The notes beneath the pieces are model-generated. The model was not told where the DNA came from, searched no databases, and worked only from the letters and a program-made list of their open reading frames with translations. From Leptolyngbya iicbica LK (GTDB taxonomy: Bacteria > Cyanobacteriota > Cyanobacteriia > Phormidesmidales > Phormidesmidaceae): a DNA stretch of 64,000 bases. The stretch is from the NCBI RefSeq assembly GCF_004212215.1, contig NZ_QVFV01000001.1, forward strand, positions 630,814-694,813, in the 5' to 3' direction. Positions 15,801 through 62,626 of the stretch are shown piece after piece (position 1 is the stretch's first letter; the number at the start of each line of letters is the position of its first letter). A program made the translations under genes and the position numbers.

Positions 15801-17003
15801 TTAATGGCTGTGGTGATGATGCTCGTGACCGTGGCTATGGCCGTGATGGTGATCATGCTCATGGGCATGGCTGTGAGGCTGCGACTGGGCGTAGGCGATC
15901 GCCAATGTGGGATTCACCGCCAAAGCATCTTCTTCCAACAAGTCCCGAATCTGATCGTCAGCCCAATCAGCCACCATCTTCAAGAATGTCGGATGATCAT
16001 TAACGCAGGGCATTTGCACAAAGCTGACATCTGAGTGCTTTTTACGGACGTTTTCAATGATGTGCTCGACATCTAGCAGCGTCTCATGGTTTTCGGTCGC
16101 AAAGCCAATGGGCATCATGACGATCGCCTTAGCACCCAAATCGATGAGGTTTTGCGTCGCGAGCTTAGCGTTGGGCTGCGTCCACTTAATCATGGGGGTT
16201 TGATGATTTAGCCAACCGACTGAAATCAGCGGATAGCGATGAATTAGGCGTTCTCGCACCCGCTCATACAGCATTTGACTTTCATCGATGCCAGAGGTGA
16301 ACCCTTTCGCCTCAAAGGGACAGCCGTGGTTCATCAAAACGATGCCGATTTGAGAGGGGAGATAGGCTTTAGCAAGTTCCGCTGCGATTTTTTCTTCCAC
16401 CATCTGCACCATCAGATCCAGATAGGCTGGTTGGTCAAAGAAGGAGGGAATGTAGCGCACGCCTTTGACCCAATGCTCTTCACCATCGCTCAGCTCGGCT
16501 AAGGCGTTATTGACCTGCTCGACAGCGATGCCGCTGGTGAAGATAGAATCCACCACCAACAACGGGTAGATGAGCAGTTTGCTGAAACCTTCCGCTTTGA
16601 TTTGCTCCAATACTTGACCGGGCAAGTGCGGCTTGCAAAAGTTGAACGCTTTGAAGACTTTGACGCGATCGCCCCAGCGGTGTTGTAGTTCGTGTTCTAC
16701 CCCCGCGCGCTGCTTCTCAAAAATGGCATTGTGAGGCGAGATAAATTTATCGTGCTGATGACTCCACTCATGTAGGTCAAAGACAGCCAGTAGCTTGGCC
16801 ATGGGGGGATACACCCAGGTGGGCACAGGAGCGAACTTCGCGGTCAGCAGATTCAATGCCTGTTCGTTGTAGTTCGCGAAGTCTTCGTAACTTTCCACCT
16901 CGCCATAGCCCATCAGCAGGACGGCTACCCGGTCTGGACTAGCGGACGAGTCTGCCTCAGACGCCTGAAGATTGTCATGAATGTTTTGAGTAGTCGTGAC
17001 CAA
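15801..17003 (-). CDS. Ferrochelatase-superfamily protein with histidine-rich C-terminal tail
   Basis: 400 residues. The TTG start at 17003 is supported by GAGG eight bases ahead. The fold is that of the ferrochelatase/CbiX class II chelatases: first strand VAVLLMGYGEV, LEQIKAEGFSKLLIYPL, the active-site His in IVLMNHGCPFEAKG, and the catalytic Glu region GFATENHETLLDVEHI. Sequence is far from the usual cyanobacterial HemH and lacks its C-terminal chlorophyll-binding-like helix. Instead the last ~24 residues are almost all His with Ser, Gly and Glu (HSHAHEHDHHHGHSHGHE...), a metal-binding tail as in some cobalt or nickel chaperones and CbiX proteins. It probably inserts or handles a divalent metal with a tetrapyrrole; which metal is open. 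A C5/G5 palindrome lies in the promoter region (17093-17109). Confidence 0.8.
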   Translation of the reverse strand: MVTTTQNIHDNLQASEADSSASPDRVAVLLMGYGEVESYEDFANYNEQALNLLTAKFAPVPTWVYPPMAKLLAVFDLHEWSHQHDKFISPHNAIFEKQRAGVEHELQHRWGDRVKVFKAFNFCKPHLPGQVLEQIKAEGFSKLLIYPLLVVDSIFTSGIAVEQVNNALAELSDGEEHWVKGVRYIPSFFDQPAYLDLMVQMVEEKIAAELAKAYLPSQIGIVLMNHGCPFEAKGFTSGIDESQMLYERVRERLIHRYPLISVGWLNHQTPMIKWTQPNAKLATQNLIDLGAKAIVMMPIGFATENHETLLDVEHIIENVRKKHSDVSFVQMPCVNDHPTFLKMVADWADDQIRDLLEEDALAVNPTLAIAYAQSQPHSHAHEHDHHHGHSHGHEHHHHSH

Positions 17004-17092
17004 AACGTTTCCTCGATGATGCTTAACGATGTCTGCGGAGATTCTAACGATTGAATCACTAGCAGATGCATTCTTTGAAGTTATAAGTTAAC

Positions 17093-17109
17093 ATCCCCCT
17101 TAGGGGGAT
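17093..17109. promoter_or_regulatory. Palindrome resembling a CsoR/RcnR-type metal operator
   Basis: ATCCCCCTTAGGGGGAT is a perfect inverted repeat (ATCCCCCT/AGGGGGAT around a central T) about 90 bases upstream of the His-tailed chelatase start and 180 bases before the divergent DUF3120 gene. CsoR, RcnR and InrS repressors bind G/C-tract palindromes flanked by A/T of this kind. Assignment is by resemblance and gene context only; a simple transcript hairpin is the alternative. Confidence 0.4.
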
Positions 17110-58173: not shown

Positions 58174-59100
58174 TTATTGTCCGGTCAAGGCTTCGAAGCC
58201 AGAGATGACATCCAGGAGCTCGGCGGTGATGGCGCTTTGGCGCTGCTGGCGATATTGCCGGGTGAGGTCTTCGAGACGGTCGTCAATGTTGCTTTCGGCG
58301 GCCTGCATGGCGGCAAGGCGGCTGGCATTTTCGCTCGCGAGGGAGGCCGCCAGAGCCTGATACAGCGAAATGAACAGGTATTGTCGCACGAGCTTGAAAA
58401 ACAGGGTTTCCGGATCCATCAGGGGGGTAGGTAAGCGGCGACTGGGCCAGGGGCGCTGCCGCAGTTGAGCCAGCCAAGCTTCATCAAGGGGTAGCGGCTG
58501 CACAATCACAGATTCGTAGGCGACGCTCGACGTAGGCCGGTTATAAAACAGCAGAATCCGTTGGTTGGGCACCAGGCCACGCGAGCCAATCGTTCCCCAG
58601 TGGGTTTGCCAGCGATCGATCATCAGCAACAGGTCTTGAACGGTGGCGGTAATGCCATCAACATTGCTGGGTACGGCAAAGGTTTCGTCGATTCGCAGGC
58701 CCAACTCTTGCAGCGTCGGCAGAGGGCGAGCACCGACGACGGCAAGGTGGCGCTGTTCAGCGATCGCGATCGGCGGATCGCCCAGGTAGCGATCGAGGTA
58801 CTGGGCAATTTGCTGATTAAACTGCCCGCACAAGCCCTGATCAGACCCAAATAAAATGATGCCTAACGGATCGGGTGAAGACGAGGCTGGGGCCAACGCC
58901 GCCGGCGGCGCGACCGAGGCTGACTGCTGGAGCAAAATTTGCAGTCCCAGCTCGAGGGTGTGGGAATATTGCTGCAGGGAAGCCAGGGCCGCTTCGTACT
59001 GCTGAATGCTAACTGCCGCCTGGGCTTTCATAGTTTTGACCACCGATTGCAGATCTGCGGTGCTGCCGATTTGCGACTTGAGGGCTTCAGGGGTTTGCAT
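58174..59100 (-). CDS. atpG: N-ATPase subunit gamma (alternate F1F0)
   Basis: 308 residues, the alternate-type gamma (central rotor shaft). It starts QTPEALKSQIGSTADLQSVVKTMKAQA, with the shaft helix, and ends AITAELLDVISGFEALTGQ, the matching C-terminal helix. The middle domain DPLGIILFGSDQGLCGQFNQ is the usual gamma loop. Its ATG follows the alpha stop directly (TAAATG), so translation is coupled. It is the last gene of the N-ATPase set; nothing follows on this strand before the OmpR-type regulator. Confidence 0.92.
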   Translation of the reverse strand: MQTPEALKSQIGSTADLQSVVKTMKAQAAVSIQQYEAALASLQQYSHTLELGLQILLQQSASVAPPAALAPASSSPDPLGIILFGSDQGLCGQFNQQIAQYLDRYLGDPPIAIAEQRHLAVVGARPLPTLQELGLRIDETFAVPSNVDGITATVQDLLLMIDRWQTHWGTIGSRGLVPNQRILLFYNRPTSSVAYESVIVQPLPLDEAWLAQLRQRPWPSRRLPTPLMDPETLFFKLVRQYLFISLYQALAASLASENASRLAAMQAAESNIDDRLEDLTRQYRQQRQSAITAELLDVISGFEALTGQ

Positions 59101-60645
59101 TTAGACCTCACTATCTGCGGGGGACGATGGGGATGGCGCGGCGGCGATCGCATCATCAACGGCTTGGGCGGCCACGGCGAGTAGGGCAGCGCGATCGCGA
59201 TCGGACAAGTTTTCCCCCGCCTCAATTTGGTCGCAAAGGTCCGCCCGTTCCCAGCGCACCGCCTGCCGAATGGCCGCTGTCACCCGCTGAATATCCGCTA
59301 AGGGCACCCCATCCAGTTCCCCTTCAGCCAGGGCGAGCAAGACCGCGATTTGCTCAGCAGCAGCCAGGGGTTCGGCTTGGCGCTGCTTCAACACCTCTTG
59401 CACCCGCCGCCCCCGCGCCAGGGTGTGGCGAGTATCGTCGTCGAGCTGGGTGCCAAAGCGAGCAAATACCTCCATCTCTTTGTATTGGGAATAGGACAGC
59501 CGCAGATCTCCCGCAACATCGCGATAGGCGGGGAGTTGCGTTTTGCCGCCCACCCGCGACACCGATTTTCCCACTTCCACGGCGGGCAAAATTCCCTGCT
59601 GAAATTGTTCTGGGGACAGATAAATCTGACCGTCGGTGATGGAAATCAAATTCGTGGGAATGTACGCCGCCAGGTTTTGCGCCTGGGTTTCCACAATCGG
59701 CAGCGCCGTGAGAGAACCGCCGCCATACTCTGGTTTCAGCCGGGTCGATCGCTCCAGCAGTCGCGAATGAATGTAGAAAATATCGCCGGGGTACGCCTCG
59801 CGCCCGGGGGGCCGACGCAGCAGCAGCGACAGTTCGCGATAGGCCCAGGCGTGGCGGGTCAGGTCGTCGTACACCACCAGCACATCGCGCCCCTGATCCA
59901 TAAAGTATTCCGCCACAGTGGTGGCGGCGTAGGGGGTGATGTATTGCAGCGCCGGGGGATCTTCGCCCGTAGACATCATCACCAGACTGTAGTCCAGCGC
60001 GTCGCGATCGCGCAGGGTGGCAATGACGTTGGCGATCGCACTCGCCCGCTGCCCAATCGCACAGTAGATGCAAATCATGTCCTGATCATGCTGATTGAGA
60101 ATGGTATCCACCGCGATCGCCGTTTTGCCGGTCTGGCGATCGCCCACAATCAGTTCCCGCTGGCCCCGCCCCACCGGAATCAGCGCATCCACCACCTTCA
60201 GCCCCGTTTGCAACGGCACCTTGACCGGGGCGCGATGGATAAACGGCGGGGCTGCCCGCTCAATCGGTCGGCGTTCTTTGGCGGCAATGGCCCCCAGCCC
60301 ATCCAACGGTCTGCCCGTCGGATCAATCACCCGCCCCAGCAAGGCATCCCCGACCGGTACATCCACCACCCGCCCGGTGCGCTCTACCCGCTGGCCGACC
60401 TCCAGGTGGTCACTCGCCCCCAACAAAATCACCCCCAGCTCATCCGCGTCAAGGTTAAAAGCAATCCCCGGTACCTGCCCCCGAAACATCAGCAACTCAT
60501 CGGCCTGGGTGTGAGGCAGCCCCGTAACCGTGGCGATGCTTTCGCTAATCGAGGCGATCGTCCCCACTTCCCGGAGTTGGGGGACTGGATCGCGATCGCG
60601 CTGGAGTAGCGCGTCGAGGGTGTCATGGAGCAGGGCGGTGAGCAT
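59101..60645 (-). CDS. atpA: N-ATPase subunit alpha
   Basis: 514 residues from the ATG at 60645; the frame extends upstream through a GT-rich repeat to 60759, which would add an artificial MHPTR run. Seen: P-loop [74 protein letters not shown] (near the alpha-Arg finger region), and a C-terminal helical domain. This is the non-catalytic nucleotide-binding subunit; catalysis needs beta (AtpD), which is not encoded in the window. Sequence is of the N-ATPase branch, clearly not the housekeeping ATP synthase. Confidence 0.93.
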
Positions 60646-60772
60646 GGGTGGAGTGGGGTGTGAGGGTGGCAGGGTGTGAGGGTGTGAGGGTGAGGTCGGT
60701 GGAGTGGGTGAGCGTGTAGGGTGCATTCGCGTAGGGTGCATTCGCGTAGGGTGCACCATTTCACCATGCCCC
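60646..60772. repeat. GT-rich tandem repeats in the atpF-atpA spacer
   Basis: Two kinds: GTGTGAGG-type units (about 60657-60715), and a 15-base unit GTAGGGTGCATTCGC repeated almost three times (60717-60760). On the minus strand it is open and in frame with atpA, reading MHPTR repeatedly. It differs from the G-rich/C-rich family of the peptide operon. Confidence 0.8.
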
Positions 60773-61555
60773 TCAAGAACGAGCCGATTGGCCTTGGGAA
60801 TGAGAATCAGATTGGGCCGATCTCATTGTTTTTTCCAACGCCTGCAAATAATCTTCGGCACTCCAGGCAAGGTCATAGGCGTCATTTTGTAGCCGGATGC
60901 CGCAGAGGAGTTGGGGCGATCGCTCGAAGTGGATGGCTTGCCCATTCAGCAGATGAGTCTCACGCAGGGTTTGGCATAGCGCGGCCTGGCTGGCCTCGGA
61001 GAGGTCGTCACTGGTTTGTACGGTGACGGGATGATCAGCAAAGGCTGTAGCGATCGCCCGCCGCTGCCCATCATCCAACCCACGCAGCTTTTGTTGAAAG
61101 GCGTAGACAGTTTGCGCTTCTAAATCGGTGTTGGCAATATCCTGCAGCACTCGCCGCACGATCGCGACCATCTGTGCGCCAAATTCGGCTTGCAAATCGG
61201 TCAAAAGGCTGTGTTGCTCATGGGCCAAGGCGGTAGCCCATTGCTGGCGTTTGTGCGCGAGTTCGGCTTGAGCTTGCTGCACTTCTTGGTGGCGCAGCGC
61301 TGCCGCTTCGGCTTGGGCCTGACTGAGCAGTTGCTCGCGCTGGGCTTCCAGGGCTCGCTGAGCTTGGTGATATTCCTTCGCTGCCGCCGCCGCTTTCACT
61401 TGTTCGGCCTCGGCGGCATCCCACCGCGCCTGCATTTGGTCTTGTCGCTGATCAATCGTTTTGAGAATCGGCTGGTACAAAAACCGATGCAGCAAAAACA
61501 GCAGGATCAGAAAGTTGATGATCTGGGCGATGACCGTAAACCAGTCAATCAGCAT
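60773..61555 (-). CDS. atpF: N-ATPase subunit b (alternate F0)
   Basis: 260 residues, longer than normal b. One N-terminal membrane helix ([20 protein letters not shown]), then a long charged coiled coil ([21 protein letters not shown]...) and a C-terminal delta-like part ([20 protein letters not shown]), as in N-ATPases where b and delta are fused and no separate atpH exists. It is the peripheral stator. The atpE stop lies 6 bases ahead. Confidence 0.92.
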
Positions 61556-61561
61556 GATGCC

Positions 61562-61852
61562 TTACCCTCCCCCCGCCTGCTCGATGAAGTAATTCCAAAA
61601 GGGATTGGCAAAGATCAAAATCATCGACACGACAAAACAGTAAATGGCGGTGGATTCCACCAGGGCCAAGCCCACAAACAGGGTGCGAGTGATGGTGTTG
61701 GCCTCGTCTGGCTGTTGGGCCAAGGCCCCCAGCGCGCGGGCTAACGCCAGACCTTCGCCGATCGCCGGGGCGATCGCGCCAATGGAGATCGTGAGTCCGG
61801 CGGTCATAATCGAGATCACGCCAATCCAGCCCAATTCGGTCAGATTTTCCAT
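61562..61852 (-). CDS. atpE: N-ATPase subunit c with sodium-binding residues
   Basis: 96 residues, two membrane helices joined by the polar loop RALGALAQQPDEANT. Helix 1 has Glu33 (PAIGEGLA); helix 2 has Glu66-Ser67-Thr68 and Tyr71 (LVESTAIY). This Glu/Glu-Ser-Thr/Tyr set is that of sodium-binding N-ATPase rings rather than proton rings. The subunit forms the rotor ring. Sodium specificity is inferred from the residues. Confidence 0.93.
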   Translation of the reverse strand: MENLTELGWIGVISIMTAGLTISIGAIAPAIGEGLALARALGALAQQPDEANTITRTLFVGLALVESTAIYCFVVSMILIFANPFWNYFIEQAGGG

Positions 61853-61906
61853 GGCTTGACTCCTAGATAAAGTGCCTGTCCACCCGTGATGGGCGAAGGT
61901 TGCTGG

Positions 61907-62626
61907 CTATGCCTGCCCCTCACTGGCCACGGTGGCATCTGCCGCGTCGGTTTTGGCCTGTTGTCGCCGCATCCCCGACGCGATGTAGACCATCGCCAAA
62001 ATGGCAAACACATACGCCTGAATCACGCCGACCAGCAGTCCAAACGCCTGCATCACCACAGGAAAGAACAGCGGCACAATGGACAGCAAAATCGCCACCA
62101 GCAAACTCGTGCTCATGACATTGCCAAAAAGCCGAATGGCGAGGGCGATCGTGCGCGAAAGTTCACTGATGAGGTTGAACGGCAGCATGACTGGCGTCGG
62201 CTCGATGTAATGCTGGAGATAGCGTCCCCACCCCAAACTTTGAATGCCAAACAAGGGCACGGCGATGAACACGCACAGAGCCAAGGCCAGCGTGGTAGAC
62301 AGTGACGCCGCTGGCGACATCAGGCCGGGGATGATCTCGATAATGTTAGCGGTCGCAATGAACAAGAATAAGGTGCCGATAAACGGCAAAAAGGGCCGCG
62401 CATCCTGACGGCTGGCGTCGCCGATTTGGTCACGCATGGCGGTCACGATAATTTCGACTCCGTGCTGCCAGCGCGATATGCGGTCTGGCCCGACGGCGAG
62501 GTGGCGCGTCACCCACCCGGCCATGAAGACTAGCACCAGCATCGTCACCCAGGAAAACACCAGCGTCGCATTGAGCTTAAAAAAGCCAGACTGCCAGTAA
62601 ATGATGTGGTCAGGGGTGATTTCCAT
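61907..62626 (-). CDS. atpB: N-ATPase subunit a
   Basis: 239 residues, about five to six membrane helices. The essential Arg is in ALAIRLFGNVMSTSLL; the last helices contain QAYVFAILAMVYIASGM. It forms the ion channel with the c ring. It starts with MEITPDHIIYWQSGFFKLN, typical for the N-ATPase branch. The atpR stop lies 4 bases ahead, and atpE follows about 54 bases after. Confidence 0.93.
   Translation of the reverse strand: MEITPDHIIYWQSGFFKLNATLVFSWVTMLVLVFMAGWVTRHLAVGPDRISRWQHGVEIIVTAMRDQIGDASRQDARPFLPFIGTLFLFIATANIIEIIPGLMSPAASLSTTLALALCVFIAVPLFGIQSLGWGRYLQHYIEPTPVMLPFNLISELSRTIALAIRLFGNVMSTSLLVAILLSIVPLFFPVVMQAFGLLVGVIQAYVFAILAMVYIASGMRRQQAKTDAADATVASEGQA

Follow-up and report, generated by a model that had tools for sequence, protein, structure and literature searches.

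Ahead of the gene for a His-tailed, ferrochelatase-like protein of the cyanobacterium Leptolyngbya iicbica LK lies a G-tract palindrome that recurs before the genes of its relatives and whose presence follows that of a CsoR/RcnR-type sensor gene across genomes. We tentatively read the protein as a second, paralogous class II chelatase that would be under the control of the cytosolic nickel sensor InrS, as part of its regulon, and would be fed with metal by its own tail; judged from sequence comparisons and a predicted structure, we give this reading a probability of roughly 0.4.

Results

All positions refer to the window, i.e., the whole stretch of 64,000 nucleotides that was analysed (Table 1). 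The chelatase gene occupies a 400-residue open reading frame on the minus strand and opens on a TTG codon, a start that agrees with the relatives, since most of the 80 named loci compared begin with (M/V/L)V(A/T)T. Its product has the HemH fold: Pfam PF00762 matches it with 134.9 bits against a cut-off of 27 (E=4e-39), and the AlphaFold model superimposes on human ferrochelatase (1hrk) with Z 30.2 over 325 residues and on LmCpfC with Z 28.9, compared with 19 for SirB and 18 for CbiK. The mean pLDDT of this model is 75 and its pTM 0.74, with loops 229-235 and 269-272 below 50, and as this confidence is too weak for such geometry we took no metal-site distances from it. The NCBIfam hemH equivalog (TIGR00109) gives the protein 84.5 bits, below its cut-off of 124.6, and the CfbA nickelochelatase model (NF033198) gives 18.1 bits against a cut-off of 120. 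An identity as CbiX or CfbA was considered as well and ruled out by the profile scores. Two further CbiX-type proteins (frames of 371 and 320 residues) are encoded in the same genome, and the CbiX model is also matched by the true HemH of this organism.

Table 1 Position of the chelatase gene, its protein features and its putative control elements in the window
Feature	Position	Strand	Basis
CDS, His-tailed chelatase, 400 aa	15801..17003	-	TTG start; stop codon 15801-15803
Ferrochelatase (HemH-type) domain, residues 26-349	15957..16928	-	Pfam PF00762 E=4e-39; AlphaFold model vs 1hrk Z 30.2
Catalytic His226, motif NHGCP	16326..16328	-	HemH alignment; 141/141 tier-1 rows
Catalytic Glu307, motif ATENHETLLDVxH	16083..16085	-	HemH alignment; 141/141 tier-1 rows
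His-rich C-terminal tail, residues 377-400, 15 His/24	15804..15875	-	Translation; tier-1 conservation
G-tract palindrome ATCCCCCTAAGGGGGATGTTA, proposed InrS-type operator (putative)	17089..17109	-	Upstream-region statistics; single strict match in genome
-10-like hexamer TAACTT, family consensus TANNCT, directly after palindrome	17085..17090	-	Column profile of 77 aligned regions; inferred

The original prediction had called the protein far from cyanobacterial HemH, had proposed a search of the genome for a separate hemH, and had named placement inside true HemH, or the lack of a further ferrochelatase in the genome, as outcomes that would speak against it; neither outcome was observed. A canonical, CAB-type HemH is indeed encoded elsewhere in the 5.7-Mb assembly of 16 contigs (G000:C2:1445430-1446383), scoring 408 bits against 135 for the chelatase. 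The two proteins share 25% identity, which bears out the distance that had been claimed, and the C-terminal CAB motif ExxNxR, present as EVWNGR in HemH, is absent from the His-tailed chelatase. For the comparisons that follow, tier 1 denotes close, His-tailed relatives, and tier 2 denotes tail-less paralogues with 46-49% identity. In a maximum-likelihood tree of 49 rows, 16 tier-1 and 5 tier-2 rows stood apart from 28 HemH-type rows with a support of 100/100, so that the chelatase falls outside true HemH; the sister group of the family is uncertain in this tree due to its long branches and midpoint root. By these comparisons the chelatase is probably not the main haem enzyme of the genome.

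The predicted retention of the active-site His and Glu of ferrochelatase is confirmed by the HemH alignment, in which NHG stands for SAHG and TENHETL for SEHIETL. Neither His226 nor Glu307 varies in any of the 141 tier-1 rows, i.e., 140 loci from two collections in which species were not merged plus the window protein, or in any of the five tier-2 rows. Around them the pocket has changed relative to HemH, from RYW to NFC, from YPQYS to LVVDS, from QSR to LNH, and from SEHIE to TENHE. No tier-1 row deviates at those replaced residues that were checked (N121, F122, C123, D152, H267, E304, N305, and H306), and many other residues are likewise invariant across 43 orthologues. Every tier-1 row has Cys228, His306, and His314, none of which occurs in the five tier-2 rows. 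Trp274 and Phe301 are conserved with HemH. As for the tail, its predicted length of about 24 residues and its richness in histidine hold, and the description as nearly pure His does not, since 15 of the 24 residues are His. Of the 140 tier-1 loci, 135 encode at least six His in the final 20 residues (minimum four), so the tail is not a product of chance; the five tier-2 proteins have only one to three His in the same stretch.

The palindrome of the window, ATCCCCCTAAGGGGGATGTTA, runs from position 17109 down to 17089, approximately 90 bases ahead of the chelatase start. Among 109 non-redundant upstream regions of the family, ATCCC-N7-GGGAT was found in 49, against 0.0 expected from mononucleotide shuffles, and the top-ranked palindromes were all of the G-tract or a related type, the first of another type (ATAAT-N4-ATTAT) occurring in five of the 109. 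Alignment on the right arm took in 77 of the 109 regions, including a few spurious ones, and yielded the consensus AT(C/G)CCCC-N-GGGG-ATG(T/C)TA-NN-CT(A). In the strict pattern ATCCCC-N-GGGGATGTTA-NNCT, the palindrome abuts a -10-like box. This pattern matches 17 times in 386 genomes, once in the 5.7-Mb genome of L. iicbica, and its reversed form not at all; by comparison of coordinates with chelatase matches, 16 of the 17 lie just before a chelatase gene. The remaining match, in genome G008 (L209 7985-11041), is flanked by a divergent ferritin-like gene on one side and by an operon of fused cbiMN, cbiQ, and cbiO on the other. The G-tract palindrome was found before none of the five tail-less tier-2 paralogues. 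As side observations, the ferritin-like gene beside the shared palindrome of G008 may also be controlled by a metal sensor, and arrays of CCCCGCAAGGGGATTGAAA with a spacing of about 70-80 bases (L300, L311, L318, and others) resemble CRISPR repeats and mimic the palindrome.

Operators of the CsoR/RcnR family are described as G-tract pseudo-palindromes (PMC3902906), and the RcnR site is given in a review (PMC7055735). One PF02583 protein is encoded in the L. iicbica genome, and its best match in the PDB is InrS (5fmn, E=1.6e-44). A site was present in 79 of 89 PF02583-positive and in none of 10 PF02583-negative chelatase holders (Fisher p=1.2e-8, a value that overstates independence since the sensor-negative holders represent about three clades and roughly two to three independent events); a genome counts as PF02583-negative, as 10 of the 99 tier-1 holders do, if it has no match at E<=1e-5. 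Counted as a site was, within 400 bases, either the chelatase form or ATCC-N2-14-GGAT enclosing CCC or GGG, a rule with false positives in 269 of 4950 Markov shuffles (5.4%) and in 0 of 99 coding-sequence controls. This final rule combines the rule used at CbiM loci with the chelatase form and was adopted after the result of a first rule had been seen; under that earlier rule, which included a GC requirement, the counts were 40 of 89 versus 0 of 10 (p=0.005), and Nostoc-type sites were missed.

The sensor-negative holders fall into family f2 (G002, G066, G205, G296, and G118), genus g30 (G095, G097, and G233), and genus g14 (G039 and G352). Ten sensor-positive holders fail the site rule (G213, G334, G193, G109, G119, G045, G033, G235, G116, and G099). 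One of them, G213, carries a site variant that the rule misses, as judged with an exploratory PWM scored in 60 genomes, and the two PF02583 matches of G235 are weak, the better having E 8.6e-16. Three, namely G334, G193, and G099, belong to genus g14, in which sensor-positive members are thus also without the site. Two members of genus g30 differ in the left half-site, which is ATCCC in the sensor-positive G251 and ATCGC in the sensor-negative G097. Genome G039 is PF02583-negative, yet has a palindrome before cbiMN, so that either a sensor gene escaped detection or a different factor acts at this palindrome. Since PF02583 also occurs in 18 genomes of the class without a chelatase gene, the sensor is not dedicated to the chelatase.

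Related palindromes were found before some nickel/cobalt uptake genes. Starts could be located at five of 10 CbiM(N) loci, and a palindrome precedes the gene at all five, four of which were read by eye; the gene is a fused cbiMN in G008, G282, G261, and G039, and CbiM in G060. With the wider pattern CCCC-N-GGGGATTG, 17 of 30 loci were read: five lie before CbiMN and one before a NikL-like gene, and 11 of the 17 are without an evident metal-uptake gene. These loci were picked by the pattern itself, which CRISPR-like repeats swamp in several genomes; they include the CbiMN genes of G193, G253, and G249 and the NikL-like gene of G111, the score of which is under its cut-off. In a second CbiM set, 11 of 20 starts were located, and a clear palindrome was found only at L275 (CbiM of G288), with weaker G-tract repeats at L285 and L286 (two Synechocystis-like genomes) and no convincing palindrome at the remaining eight of the 11, the CbiM of L. 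iicbica itself among them. The metal carried by cbiMN behind the related palindromes may be cobalt rather than nickel. At nine uptake-gene promoters the palindrome leads into a -35-like box (TTGNAA in six, TTGAAT in two, TTGTTT in one), whereas at the chelatase promoter it leads into the -10 box instead, an arrangement that would fit activation of import and repression of the chelatase. InrS is described with such a dual action at nik and nrsD (PMC7055735), and NikKLMQO is the nickel importer in Synechocystis (PMC5904137).

The chelatase family is old and common among cyanobacteria. Tier-1 genes are held by 99 of 386 genomes of the phylum, with L. iicbica and the broken copy of G066 counted in, and matches at E<=1e-5, including those at the level of HemH, occur in 198 of the 386. 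Tier-2 copies were found in five genomes (G334, G350, G380, G167, and G091). Named genera with relatives are Halomicronema, Leptolyngbya, Okeania, Nodosilinea, Crocosphaera, and Trichodesmium, and a Prochloraceae-labelled MAG (L114) also carries the gene. In the 386-genome search, the small-genome family f20 and the genus g7 gave HemH-level matches only; we call g7 Synechocystis-like because the sensor of its member G093 (L249) is nearly identical to InrS (5fmn). Plasmid relatives comprise 26 records, of which one is a tail-less Nostoc paralogue at 48% identity and the rest are distant, some of them annotated hemH.

Several further observations concern individual genomes and gene neighbourhoods. 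The genomes G266 (L157) and G181 (L158), of about 3.0 Mb, contain only fragments of the chelatase gene, which is intact in their congener G143, and perhaps represent reduced endosymbionts. A MAG named Chloroflexaceae (L108) has a chelatase gene with 75% identity, probably on a misbinned cyanobacterial contig. The tail-less paralogue of Nostoc sp. UHCC 0926 sits on a plasmid. Near the tier-2 paralogue, a ZIP-like metal transporter occurs in four of five genomes (L152, L153, L156, and L164; not L154), the one tested matching Pfam Zip just below the cut-off (E=7e-8), and a DnaJ-like gene occurs in three of five. Synteny around the chelatase gene is little conserved. A divergent gene of 185 residues without a Pfam match, alpha/beta-hydrolase-like by eye, lies within 4.5 kb of the chelatase at 43 of 119 loci (e.g., L138); because the copy of L. 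iicbica lies elsewhere, we make no functional claim for it. Elsewhere in the window, positions 58174-62626 of the minus strand encode an alternative F-type ATPase set that resembles an N-ATPase operon and in which Pfam identifies the gamma, alpha, B, and A subunits.

Discussion

In the proposed mechanism, apo-InrS would occupy the palindrome abutting the -10 box when nickel is low and block transcription of the chelatase gene; upon a rise in Ni(II), InrS would leave the operator and the gene would be expressed. The His-rich tail would then capture Ni(II), possibly also Co(II), and pass it to the chelatase site, which we propose to comprise His226 and Glu307 together with the family-specific Cys228, His306, and His314, and insertion of the metal into a tetrapyrrole would give a harmless or useful metal complex. 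Binding by InrS, nickel as the inducer, delivery of metal by the tail, and insertion of nickel by the chelatase are steps that we infer. In favour of this reading, structures of SirB and CbiK, which have the same fold, are available with nickel or cobalt. His tails also bind zinc and copper, and the chelatase domain could still insert Fe(II). The link to nickel or cobalt made in the original prediction gains support from the conserved palindrome, the sites at some Ni/Co uptake genes, and the co-occurrence with the sensor; insertion of that metal into a tetrapyrrole, or a new substrate, is no more than plausible, on account of the changed pocket residues. A more specific version, that oxygenic phototrophs have a nickel-induced chelatase which loads porphyrins or chlorins with Ni(II), either for detoxification or for making Ni-chlorins, seems to us somewhat unlikely. 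We know of no enzyme for nickel insertion in acyl-tunichlorins. These Ni chlorins are known from a tunicate with a cyanobacterial partner; a review assigns their nickel to the animal and the pheophytin to its partner (PMC8074062).

The HemH fold, the retained catalytic His and Glu, and control by a metal sensor would also suit a back-up ferrochelatase that inserts Fe(II), comes on when an excess of nickel or cobalt disturbs the main HemH, and has its active site shielded from competing metals by the tail. Two annotated hemH genes in Nostoc PCC 7120, alr4616 and alr3751 (PMC7699953, PMC8147232), point the same way, with alr4616 as no more than a candidate member of the family. Against such a role speak the pocket residues of HemH that were replaced and then frozen, a hemH equivalog score under the cut-off, and a separate deep clade, and we consider it unlikely. 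Still less probable is that catalysis was lost and that the protein serves as a buffer or metallochaperone for nickel (or zinc or cobalt), storing metal with its tail and active site as other His-rich stores do: the near-universal tail (135 of 140 loci) and a palindrome of metal-sensor type agree with this, but a mere buffer would not need the invariance of His226 and Glu307 (141 of 141) or the many residues frozen in 43 orthologues, and we regard it as quite improbable.

A different question is whether the regulator is InrS and the metal nickel. Another CsoR/RcnR-like protein or an unrelated factor could act at the palindrome, in response to cobalt, zinc, copper, or oxidative stress, and the palindrome that G039 keeps before cbiMN without PF02583 would fit this, as would the brief response of InrS to zinc and copper (PMC4235346) and, if alr4616 is this gene, its increase with peroxide in a pkn22 mutant (PMC4518582). 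However, about three clades lack both the site and a PF02583 gene, NikR and Nur are reported absent from cyanobacterial genomes (PMC4284471), and some Ni/Co uptake genes have related sites, all of which makes a regulator other than InrS or a metal other than nickel unlikely. Expression of alr4616, which is annotated as hemH, rose 8.6-fold in low CO2, a condition in which metal efflux clusters were also up (PMC7699953), and as a candidate member this gene is a lead for the family in Nostoc PCC 7120.

Returning to the reading as an InrS-controlled second chelatase, the protein can be set against systems already described. With the CAB-tailed cyanobacterial HemH it shares the fold, the catalytic His and Glu, Trp274, and Phe301, but it differs in its 25% identity, the lack of ExxNxR, an altered pocket, the His-rich tail, and a promoter palindrome of metal-sensor type. 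CbiXL, SirB, CbiK, and CfbA have the superfamily fold in common with it (Z 19 for SirB and 18 for CbiK), and a C-terminal region rich in His is known from CbiXL as well (PMC7689651). In contrast to these enzymes, the chelatase has a His/Glu pair rather than two His and a fold nearer to HemH, and while it has a His-rich tail, the MXCXXC Fe-S motif of CbiXL is absent from its 400 residues. The InrS regulon of Synechocystis, comprising the nrsD exporter and the nik importer, offers a shared sensor orthologue and a promoter G-tract palindrome of the type described for CsoR/RcnR, whereas the available portions of its descriptions (PMC4235346, PMC7055735, PMC4284471) list no tetrapyrrole chelatase among the targets. 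The CAB-less, His-rich ferrochelatases of a 2021 paper (PMC8529089) are very probably this family, as matched by their description (cyanobacterial, with a His-rich C-terminus). That paper mentions them in one paragraph as 'not previously identified or studied' and calls them ferrochelatases; co-occurrence with CAB HemH, regulation, and metal are not mentioned in the portion available. Our literature search, with partial journal coverage, found no study of the function of the family or of its control by InrS, and no report of the palindrome, the tie to an InrS-type sensor, or the co-occurrence with CAB-type HemH. The control region of the chelatase is new here, and the protein family was already mentioned in 2021.

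Nickel is toxic in excess. Its users in cyanobacteria are hydrogenase and urease (PMC5904137). If the widespread gene encodes a chelatase controlled by nickel, the enzyme would tie nickel homeostasis to tetrapyrrole chemistry. The chelatase is missing in the Synechocystis-like genomes (g7) of our sample, which may explain why it was overlooked. If our reading is true, the family would provide a testable nickel insertion step in a phototroph and a protein with a natural His-tag, and the chelatase promoter might report intracellular nickel in Nostoc and its kin.
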